A stretch of DNA of 64,000 nt, taken from positions 1-64,000 of the forward strand of contig JABJKS010000059.1 in assembly GCA_018660265.1 (NCBI GenBank), given 5' to 3'. The position numbers were made by a program, and so were the translations under genes. Within the stretch, counting starts at the first letter, position 1. Every line of letters starts with the position of its first letter. A model generated the notes under the pieces. It was not told where the DNA came from and ran no database searches. It saw nothing but the letters and a program-made list of their open reading frames with translations. Shown here piece by piece: positions 19,823 to 23,526 of the stretch. Origin of the DNA: Rhodospirillaceae bacterium. GTDB lineage: Bacteria; Pseudomonadota; Alphaproteobacteria; GCA-2731375.

Positions 19823-21763
19823 CTATTTGTTCTGCCTGTTCTCGATCAGATCTTCGACCACCGCCGGCTCCGCCAAAGTGGATGTGTCGCCCAGGTTAGA
19901 GAAATCATCTTCGGCGATCTTGCGCAGGATACGGCGCATGATCTTGCCGGAGCGGGTTTTCGGCAGGCCCGGTGCGAACTGGATCAGATCCGGCGATGCG
20001 ATGGGCCCGATATCTTTGCGCACCCATTGCACCAGCTCCTTGCGCAGGTCCTCATCCCCGTCCAGGCCCGCATTCAAGGTAACATAGGCATAGATGCCCT
20101 GGCCCTTGATGTCGTGGGGATAGCCGACCACCGCCGCCTCGGCCACGTCATGGTGGCCCACCAACGAGCTTTCAACTTCCGCCGTGCCCATACGATGGCC
20201 CGAGACGTTGATGACATCGTCAACCCGCCCCGTGATCCAGTAATAGCCGTCTTCGTCCCTGCGGCAGCCGTCGCCGGTGAAATATTTGCCGGGATAGGTG
20301 GAAAAATAGGCCTCGATAAAGCGATCATGATCGCCATAAAGCGTCCGCATCTGCCCTGGCCAACTGTCCAGAATGCACAGGTTGCCCGAAGCTGCACCTT
20401 CCATCAATTCACCTTCGCCATCCACCAACGCCGGTTTGATGCCAAAGAAGGGCCGCGTGGCGGAACCCGGTTTCAGGTCGGTCGCACCTGGCAGGGGCGT
20501 GATCAGAATGCCGCCTGTTTCCGTCTGCCACCAGGTATCGACGATGGGGCAGCGCCCGTCACCGACCACATTGTGGTACCACAGCCAGGCTTCGGGATTG
20601 ATCGGCTCGCCCACCGAACCCAACAGGCGGATGGAACTGCGGGAGGTTTTCTTGACCGGCCCGTCGCCTTCCCGCATCAGGGCGCGGATGGCCGTTGGTG
20701 CGGTGTAGTAAATGTTGATCCGATGTTTGTCGCAAACTTCCCAATGGCGGGAGGCATCAGGGTAATTCGGCACCCCTTCGAACATCACGGTGGTGGCGCC
20801 GTTGGATAGCGGGCCATAGAGAATATAGCTGTGCCCGGTAACCCAACCCACATCGGCGGTGCACCAATAGATATCGCCGTCGTGATAATCGAAGACGTAC
20901 TGATGGGTCATGGAGGCATAAACCATATAGCCCCCCGTGGTGTGCAAGACGCCCTTGGGCTTGCCGGTGGAGCCGGAGGTATAGAGGATGAACAGCGGAT
21001 CTTCCGCGCCCATTTCCTCCGCCGGGCATTCCTCCGATTGATCGGCAACCAGTTCGTGATACCAAACGTCCCGTCCGGCCTTCATATTAGCCTCGGCACC
21101 GGTACGGTTGACCACCACGCAATGATCGACGGTCGGACATTTTTCCAACGCCGCGTCTGTGTTCGCCTTCAATGGGATCGGCTTGCCGCCGCGCATGCCT
21201 TCATCGGAAGTGATGACGATATTGGATTCGCAATCATGAATACGGCCCGCCAAAGCATCGGGAGAGAAACCGCCGAAGACCACGGAATGCGGGGCACCAA
21301 TGCGGGCACAAGCCAGCACGGCCACCGCGATCTCGGGTATCATGGGTAGATAGATCGTGACCCGGTCGCCCCGTTTGACGCCCAGAGATTTCAGGCCGTT
21401 GGCGAATTTGCAGACAGCGGCATGAAGTTCGCCATAGGTAAATGACATTGAATCCGCCGGGTCGTCGCCTTCCCAGATGATCGCGGTCTGATCGCGCCGG
21501 GTTTCCAAGTGGCGGTCCAGACAATTGTAAGAGGCGTTCAGGCTGCCGTCTTCATACCATTTGATGGAGACATCACCTGGGCCATAGGTGGTGTTCTTCA
21601 CCTTTGTGTAGGGTTTGAACCAATCAATGCGTTTGCCCTGTTCGCCCCAAAAGCCGTCCGGATCATCCAGGGATTGCTGATACATGGCCAGGTATTTGTC
21701 GTTGTCCGCAAAGGCCTTTTCGGCCCAGGCACCAGGTACGGGGAATAGTTCGTTGTCGCTCAT
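19823..21763 (-). CDS. acs: Acetyl-CoA synthetase
   Basis: A 646-residue AMP-forming acetate:CoA ligase, the normal length for Acs. Visible are the N-terminal ACAS domain, the phosphate-binding loop [12 protein letters not shown], the WWQTETGG motif and the C-terminal [13 protein letters not shown] motif with the catalytic, acetylation-regulated lysine. It converts acetate, ATP and CoA to acetyl-CoA. Its upstream region is unusual. A 14-bp tandem repeat (21820-21889) and a twin-hairpin element (21927-22195) lie between it and the divergent oxidoreductase gene, so either could affect its expression. Confidence 0.97.
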
Positions 21764-21819
21764 TTTTGCCTCCCTAGATTATTTGCATTTATTATCCCGA
21801 TAAAGGGGACCTCGGACAA

Positions 21820-21889
21820 GGCCAGACACGACAGACCCGACACGACAGGCCAGACACGATAGGCCAGACACGACAGGCCCGACACGGCG
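21820..21889. repeat. Five tandem 14-bp units upstream of acs
   Basis: Five head-to-tail copies of GGCCAGACACGACA and close variants occupy exactly 70 bases, starting 57 bases before the acs start. Copies 1 and 4 are identical and the others differ by one to four bases. The arrangement looks like a short variable-number tandem repeat in the acs leader or promoter. Confidence 0.85.
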
Positions 21890-21962
21890 GAGAAAGTAAT
21901 ATGGGACACGCTCCGACCACCTGGGGCTAGTGTCCTGGTTCAGAAATACGTCATGTTTAGGA

Positions 21963-22056
21963 TCGGTTCTCCGGACCTCCGGGTAGGAGGCATACCGCCG
22001 GCGATGCGGCACATCGTCAAGGGATACCGACGCCATCCGGAGGTCCGGAGAACCGA
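21963..22056 (+). repeat. Left hairpin of the twin-hairpin element
   Basis: A perfect 20-bp stem (21963-21982 with 22037-22056) encloses a 54-nt loop. Within the loop a 6-of-8-bp stem (21989-21996 with 22021-22028) and a 7-bp inner stem including one G.T pair (22000-22006 with 22012-22018) carry a 5-nt terminal loop. The layout equals that of the right hairpin. Confidence 0.8.
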
Positions 22057-22065
22057 CCAAATTGG

Positions 22066-22159
22066 CGGTCTAAGAGGCCCCTCGGACGTCGTTGTGCGGC
22101 CTTCATGATGCAACACATCACGACGGGCCACACGCCTAGCCGAGGGGCCTCTTAGACCG
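22066..22159 (-). repeat. Right hairpin of the twin-hairpin element
   Basis: A perfect 20-bp stem (22066-22085 with 22140-22159) and a 54-nt loop. Read on the minus strand, the loop has an 8-bp stem and a 7-bp stem at the same loop offsets as in the left hairpin, with several base pairs changed on both sides. Confidence 0.8.
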
Positions 22160-22248
22160 TCCTAAATACGGCGTATCTCTGAACCAGGACACTAGCAAAC
22201 ATAATTCCTCTGTGCCACGATGGGGCATCAAAAATTGGGGATATGCTC

Positions 22249-23526
22249 ATGAACCGGCAAAACGTTGACAAAAAGCACATAACGCAGTCTTCCGAGACAG
22301 CTTCATCGGCTTATGTGCCGACCCTCCAACTCACCGAAGGGCAACCAGCACCCATCGCCGCGAACGGTGGCTTATCCTACCTGTCGTTCGACCGGGACGG
22401 GGATGGAGGTACGGCTGCCGCGACCGAGGCGGCGCTGACCCAGATTGCCGAGGGCGCAGGGCAGGCGGTTATCGACATGCTCGACAATGCGCCCCCTGGC
22501 CCAATCGAGACAAAGTGGGGCATCGGGTTTCGCGGCTATGGGGAATGCATGGACTATATTCATGCCAACAATATTGAAGCGCCTGAAGGCGGCCTCGCGC
22601 TTCCTTTGCCCTATACCATCGTTGAGCAACCGTCCTATTCCATTGTATCATCGAACGCGCTTTGGCAGGATCCAAGCCGTGAGGCCGATGCAAAAGCGTT
22701 GCGCAAGGACGAAGAAGACAACGTGCGGCAACGGCTGTTTTATCCCCAGGTGATGCGCGATGCGCGGCGCATTGAAGAATACTACCCGGGCCTTTCGCCA
22801 AATAGCCCCGAAAGCATGGACAAGCTTGGCGTCTCGCTGGCCCATTGCGAGTCCAAGTGCGAGAATTTTTATGACGCCGCCGAGGTGGAGCGTGTTTTCT
22901 ACCCGGAGATTGAAAAGCTGTTGTTGGAATTTTTCCCTGGGGCGACGGACGCGCTTGTCTACAATCACGACGTATTTGACAAGGACTATCAGGGTGACCG
23001 TACGGAAGATCAGGACAACAAGAACCCAGGGGTGAATGCCAACTACGCCAACCTTGTGCACAACGACCTGAACGACAATAGCGGCCGTGTGCGCTGCCGT
23101 GAGCTGCTGACGAAGAACCTGCGGAACTTTGGCCGGGAGCAACATTATACCGAGGCCGAGGCCGACGCGAAGATGTCGCGGCGGTTCATGTCGATCAACC
23201 TCGCCAAACCGATGGAGACTGTGCGCCAATACCCCTTCGTTCTTTGCGCCTGGCCCTCGTTTGCCAAACAGCCGTATATCAATAACTACCGGGTCTACGA
23301 CGACCGCGTTGGTGAAACCACCCGCTTTACCCATGACCCCGGTCACGAATGGTACTGGCTTCCCGCGCAGACGCCAACGGAGGTGTCAATGCTAAAGTGC
23401 TACGACTCGGTCACCGACGGCTCCGTCTCGCGCTGGTCATTCCATACGGCTTGCATCGACCCAACTGCGCCCGAGGATGCGCCGTGCCGCAAAAACGTCG
23501 TGGTCCGGTCCTATGTCTTCTTTTAG
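22249..23526 (+). CDS. CmcJ/NvfI family oxidoreductase
   Basis: About 425 residues. The second half matches the CmcJ/NvfI (also asaB or GA4-desaturase-like) family. It has a YNHDVFD segment, an R-containing region with NLAKPMETVRQYPFVLC, HEWYWLPAQTPTEV, and the family-defining LKCYDSVTDG...HTACIDP...VRSYVFF ending. Characterised relatives are Fe(II)/2-oxoglutarate-type enzymes in natural-product pathways. The usual VHxD segment reads VHNDLND here. ATG at 22249 is preferred over 22243 because GGGGA is then properly spaced. It stands alone, divergent from acs, with a terminator at its end. The substrate is unknown. Confidence 0.78.
   Translation: MNRQNVDKKHITQSSETASSAYVPTLQLTEGQPAPIAANGGLSYLSFDRDGDGGTAAATEAALTQIAEGAGQAVIDMLDNAPPGPIETKWGIGFRGYGECMDYIHANNIEAPEGGLALPLPYTIVEQPSYSIVSSNALWQDPSREADAKALRKDEEDNVRQRLFYPQVMRDARRIEEYYPGLSPNSPESMDKLGVSLAHCESKCENFYDAAEVERVFYPEIEKLLLEFFPGATDALVYNHDVFDKDYQGDRTEDQDNKNPGVNANYANLVHNDLNDNSGRVRCRELLTKNLRNFGREQHYTEAEADAKMSRRFMSINLAKPMETVRQYPFVLCAWPSFAKQPYINNYRVYDDRVGETTRFTHDPGHEWYWLPAQTPTEVSMLKCYDSVTDGSVSRWSFHTACIDPTAPEDAPCRKNVVVRSYVFF

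Follow-up and report, generated by a model that had tools for sequence, protein, structure and literature searches.

What is the 269-bp element that lies between acs and a CmcJ-like gene in this alphaproteobacterial genome, and which part of it lasts? Miniature inverted-repeat transposable elements (MITEs) are normally defined by their ends, and their interiors are regarded as filler. In the window—the whole 64,000-nucleotide stretch of DNA that was analysed—the element runs from CTAG to CTAG (21927–22195, no strand assigned) and holds no open reading frame of 100 amino acids. It is located 163 bp upstream of acs (19823–21763, minus strand) and 47 bp upstream of a gene for a CmcJ/NvfI-family oxidoreductase (22243–23526); both neighbours had been named in the original prediction, and both are confirmed. 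Between the element and acs, in the upstream region of that gene, a 14-bp unit (AGGCCAGACACGAC-like) recurs about five times head to tail (21819–21888).

The element opens with a left terminal inverted repeat (TIR) of type CTAGTGTCCTGGTTCAGAA (21927–21962, plus strand), which has its TA target within CTAG and shares its type with an IS630 end at locus L336. Hairpin A follows (21963–22056, sense on the plus strand), and is built from a perfect 20-bp stem (21963–21982/22037–22056), a TAGGAG/CGACG internal loop with tandem G.A pairs, an 8-bp inner stem, and a GATG-5-CATC terminal hairpin. A 9-nt spacer, CCAAATTGG, forms the centre (22057–22065, no strand assigned). Beyond it, hairpin B (22066–22159, sense on the minus strand) repeats the architecture of A in inverted orientation with its own perfect 20-bp stem (22066–22085/22140–22159), and the right TIR closes the element (22160–22195, minus strand). 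The predicted 36-94-9-94-36 layout, with its 20-bp stems and 54-nt loops, is exact (36+94+9+94+36 = 269). The claim that the element is symmetrical to the base holds for this layout but not for the sequence—hairpins A and B are diverged homologues, about 75% alike, and the 36-nt TIRs are imperfect, with 32 of 36 positions matched by eye. Similarly, the 54-nt loops have the predicted length but are not open, since each contains the 8-bp inner stem and a terminal hairpin of 6–7 bp. The element folds at -182 kcal/mol (z = -16.6 relative to dinucleotide shuffles); this value, together with copies of about 97% identity elsewhere in the genome, indicates that the structure in the window is not due to chance.

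Other copies, which a mobile family should have, are plentiful both here and in relatives. We estimate about 25 elements in the genome itself, a count that is approximate because contigs break at repeats. BLAST recovered four full copies at 96–100% identity (including the window copy), one at 77%, and five partial copies at contig ends at 97–99%; copies in congeners are 267–269 bp long and 78–85% identical. We joined the flanks of 12 elements from the own genome and searched them against 11 genomes of the genus; several sites proved to be empty in congeners. At L114, the corresponding site in genome G003 reads GACGGAGTAAG, and the element of our genome is inserted exactly at that TAA stop codon; alignable empty sites were also found for L110, L112, L123, and L004. 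The expectation of empty sites was therefore realised for other copies; the window copy, with flanks that are not conserved in the 11 congeners searched, yielded none. At L112 the congener has uninterrupted, apparently coding sequence, which indicates that insertions are not always gentle. At the left ends of L052, L066, L067, L110, and L114 the insertion coincides with or adjoins the upstream gene's stop codon (TAG in CTAG, or TAA in TNA), and no bias was found in gene arrangement around the elements (30 codirectional, 23 divergent, and 15 convergent, using a crude ORF call). Among the derivatives, truncated forms occur (L050 and L073), and a 49-bp form consists of the two ends only, without hairpins (L013, 1501–1549; G000:C91:82592–82640).

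The ends of these elements are far more varied than their layout. Among elements of constant layout the TIR sequences fall into about 14 clusters, including CTAGTGTCCTGG..., ATACCAAGG...GACCCATA, CTAGTACCCACT..., CTAGAGC..., TTAGGAGCCTG..., and others, and the stretch up to the hairpin stays at about 33–36 nt across types. The target is either CTAG or a duplicated 3-bp TNA. Window-type elements sit in CTAG on both sides, a palindrome in which TA and CTAG targets are indistinguishable; T3-type elements have the TNA duplication, which is exact in 24 of 45 cases (a count that includes a few non-T3 ends).

Several of these TIR types match the ends of IS630 elements. In the same genus, IS630 (PF13358) elements end in TACCAA...ACCCAT, CTAGAGCGTTTCC..., or CTAGTGGTCTGAATCA..., and match several types; L134, an IS630-like element of 1166 bp that has TAA target copies, carries T3-type (TACCAA...) ends, which L134 and L135 have in common with hairpin elements. 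For the window type, an IS630 end in another genus (G276), CTAGTGTCCTGGTTCAGAAGTTCG, matches 22 of the first 24 bases of the element, and the adjoining DNA encodes a C-terminus that matches annotated IS630 transposases of Bradyrhizobium plasmids, whose own annotated ends (CTAGTGT..) match the window type at 18–19 of 24 positions. The expected transposases with similar ends are thus found in G276 and Bradyrhizobium, and same-genus IS630-like elements match sister types. No IS630 with exact window-type ends was found inside the genus; in the own genome no intact transposase has the exact 36-bp ends, and the closest match, from another genus, is a 149-bp piece at a contig end. At one locus (L047, 1757 onward; G002:C88), a hairpin element directly borders one end of an IS630 transposase element, the two having a CTAG in common. 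In summary, the element is short and non-coding, has TIRs, dispersed copies, and empty sites, and has its ends in common with autonomous IS630 elements; these features support the predicted assignment of the window element as a putative non-autonomous IS630-type element, or MITE. To judge from sequence, it is a "parasite of a parasite" that has probably been spread through many alphaproteobacteria by IS630-type transposases.

How widely is the interior distributed? Of 385 genomes sampled from the class, 34 contain the unit according to a covariance model of the single hairpin (R1), and these span more than 20 families; the model also matched in two genomes of another class of the same phylum and 61 times in the own genome (both strands counted). 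The named contigs that carry it come mostly from uncultured Rhodospirillaceae and other Alphaproteobacteria. Seven off-group matches to a short pattern (in Akkermansiaceae, Hymenobacter, Rhizobium, and others) had no model hit and were taken as chance, and neither the plasmid collection (four element types) nor the viral contigs gave a match. In all 100 of 100 hairpin pairs a plus-sense hairpin precedes a minus-sense one, so that a sense hairpin is met first from either side, and the 9-nt spacer is present in 67 of the 100. Among 86 distinct elements, 65 combine one type A start (ATC) with one type B start (ACG); none is AA or BB. The constant layout, set against about 14 TIR types of which several match different IS630 ends, argues that the core is older than any one set of ends; the retention of A plus B in each element while the TIRs vary argues that the two hairpins are old and distinct, with ends that changed around both.

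The hairpins are also conserved as structures. In a set of 25 divergent units, 94.4% of cells pair and 32 of 37 pairs have double changes, with a covariation score of 0.78 as opposed to 0.22 for shuffled and at most 0.17 for slid controls. Letters are conserved at unpaired or non-canonical positions, namely TAGGAG / CGACG with G26.A69 and A27.G68, and CAAG opposite GCxG; these may form tandem sheared pairs. The non-canonical pair 27.68 itself covaries (A.G in 56, C.A in 16, with few exceptions), and positions 22 and 74 form Watson-Crick pairs in 34 cases, compared with 20 in shuffles. Conservation of the internal loops and of the non-canonical pair extends over more than 20 families. No terminator-like T-run was found.

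Could such hairpins nevertheless be functionless? Quasi-palindromes are corrected by template switching or gene conversion, and an ordinary IS630 MITE might have its stems kept perfect by this exchange between arms; the perfect stems beside fast-changing sequence, and the existence of a few deletion derivatives (the 49-bp L013; truncated L050/L073), would fit. Duplex or gene-conversion explanations predict symmetry between G.T and A.C mismatches, however, and this prediction can be examined strand by strand. We counted wobbles with one unit per 80% cluster and with pairing registers set from Watson-Crick pairs only. On the sense strand, the ratio of G.T to A.C is 65:19 in the outer stem (p = 5e-7) and 78:6 in the inner stem (p = 5e-17); by hairpin, it is 44:13 in A and 60:5 in B. 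The TIRs of the same elements, which serve as the control, are balanced at 38:35. Since A and B are both G.T-rich although their sense strands are opposite, a strand-biased mutation process is argued against; the excess in the hairpins and the balance in the TIRs instead indicate that the hairpins are selected as single strands and the TIRs as duplex. Repair is strand-symmetric and would leave no such excess, nor does it account for internal loops and a non-canonical pair kept across more than 20 families. The functionless reading is already contradicted, and we regard it as very improbable. The covariation and the strand-specific wobble pairs together support the original prediction that the element preserves its structures. 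That prediction foresaw neither the recurrence of the core with many different ends nor selection on one strand.

The same counts bear on the idea that the hairpins directly aid IS630 transposition, as a cruciform that joins the ends or binds an accessory protein, with no role in transcripts. The hairpin-to-end distance is fixed in all types and most copies keep both hairpins, as this idea would have it; yet a duplex or cruciform function does not predict a sense-strand wobble bias, one core is served by different IS630 types and two target-duplication modes, and small CTAGTGTC-ended elements without the core exist in another genome. We consider this role improbable. The CTAGTGTC-ended elements, 76–79-bp palindromes without the twin-hairpin core, are found in G136 (L334, L348, and L351, from 1501; L334 and L348 on the reverse strand), where two kinds lie side by side about 13 bp apart; they represent a separate MITE family.

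The hairpins thus seem to do some job as single-stranded RNA or DNA, one that has outlived several changes of ends. In the DNA version, the hairpins of the same mobile element would be extruded either on the lagging-strand template or within a transposition intermediate, where a transposase helper, or a host protein of replication or recombination, would bind them—one sense hairpin per strand, like the REP/BIME pairs used by RAYT. The G.T counts fit single-stranded DNA with G.T wobbles equally well, hairpin A gives a good fold under DNA parameters (z = -6.3), the inverted pairs resemble BIMEs, and the conserved internal loops suggest recognition by a protein. On the other side, IS630 is taken to move as duplex DNA; the wobble content of the inner stem is RNA-like; 17 Y1/RAYT transposase loci of related genomes yielded one weak hairpin match, about 1 kb away; and the base before TAG is variable and pairs with position 74, in contrast to the fixed GTAG of REPs. 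We therefore hold a single-stranded DNA role to be unlikely, if less so than the transposition aid. For the same reasons (the varying, paired base before TAG, and Y1 loci without flanking copies) a RAYT-mobilised REP/BIME origin was rejected. High wobble tolerance, together with stop-codon and intergenic insertion that exposes the element to read-through, leads us to infer that RNA is the more likely working form.

The reading that we prefer, to which we give an even chance, is that of an IS630-mobilised MITE carrying an old twin-hairpin cargo that acts as RNA in read-through transcripts via a host factor. IS630-superfamily transposases would mobilise the element in trans and recognise only its ends, and the cargo between these would consist of hairpins A and B, which are structured, homologous, and mutually inverted. 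The RNA form would be made when transcription of a neighbouring gene enters the element; transcription from either side would reach a sense hairpin about 36 nt in, and the element would thus act alike in both insertion orientations. The internal loops would most likely be recognised by a host factor that is widely conserved—an RNA-binding protein, nuclease, or RNA polymerase—which would fix the fate of the read-through transcript, whether by processing, 3'-end protection, or continued transcription, with the outcome that insertions at stop codons and in operons would be tolerated. Such a role in transcript fate would account for a core that is retained even as the ends change to those of whichever IS630 is active. 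A broader claim can be made more tentatively, with rather less than even confidence: that this is a structured RNA family carried class-wide by transposons, whose twin hairpin works in both directions, acts in cis on entering transcripts, and persists by changing its IS630 ends. On that reading, what lasts would be the RNA core and not the transposon; should the hairpin bind a host factor, Alphaproteobacteria would have a widespread RNA–protein contact still to be described.

As a transposon, the element represents a new IS630 MITE family that can be compared with RUP of Streptococcus pneumoniae, a 107-bp non-autonomous repeat mobilised by IS630-Spn1, with ends that match a resident IS630 and TA-containing targets (PMC2229807). 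What is distinctive is the conserved, covarying, strand-selected twin-hairpin core common to many end sets, which RUP lacks across end sets and families. In this family, conservation lies in the interior and it is the ends that are exchanged, the reverse of the usual view of MITEs. Rfam 15 gave no match over the element at E up to 1 (window plus 10 divergent loci), and we found no description of the family in the freely accessible literature searched. BOX of S. pneumoniae is likewise a modular mobile repeat with a predicted RNA fold that is seen in transcripts, but it belongs to another phylum and has other modules, and it is not reported to have a twin inverted design or a fixed layout (PMC3049150). 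Correia elements (NEMIS) of Neisseria and ERIC of enterobacteria are MITE-like palindromic repeats for which, according to the same source, cutting of the RNA by RNase III or RNase E is reported or suspected (PMC3049150). Unlike the window element, these are single palindromes and lack paired, inverted homologous hairpins whose internal loops are conserved. REP/BIME units with RAYT have inverted hairpin pairs and a TAG-G motif at the foot; the window element differs from them in that it has mobilising ends of IS630 type and does not conserve the GTAG guide. By its description, RIME of rhizobia, 106 bp long with two large palindromes, is an alphaproteobacterial repeat that resembles the element in having two palindromes and differs in length (106 versus 269 bp). 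The strand-specific wobble test, with an element's own TIRs as the control, separates single-strand from duplex selection without experiment, and it could help with ERIC, Correia, BOX, and other repeats for which an RNA role is debated. Outside the class, a solitary diverged unit without visible terminal repeats lies between pstB-like and phoU-like genes (L290, 865–959; G728), and is possibly a non-transposon relative of the hairpin.
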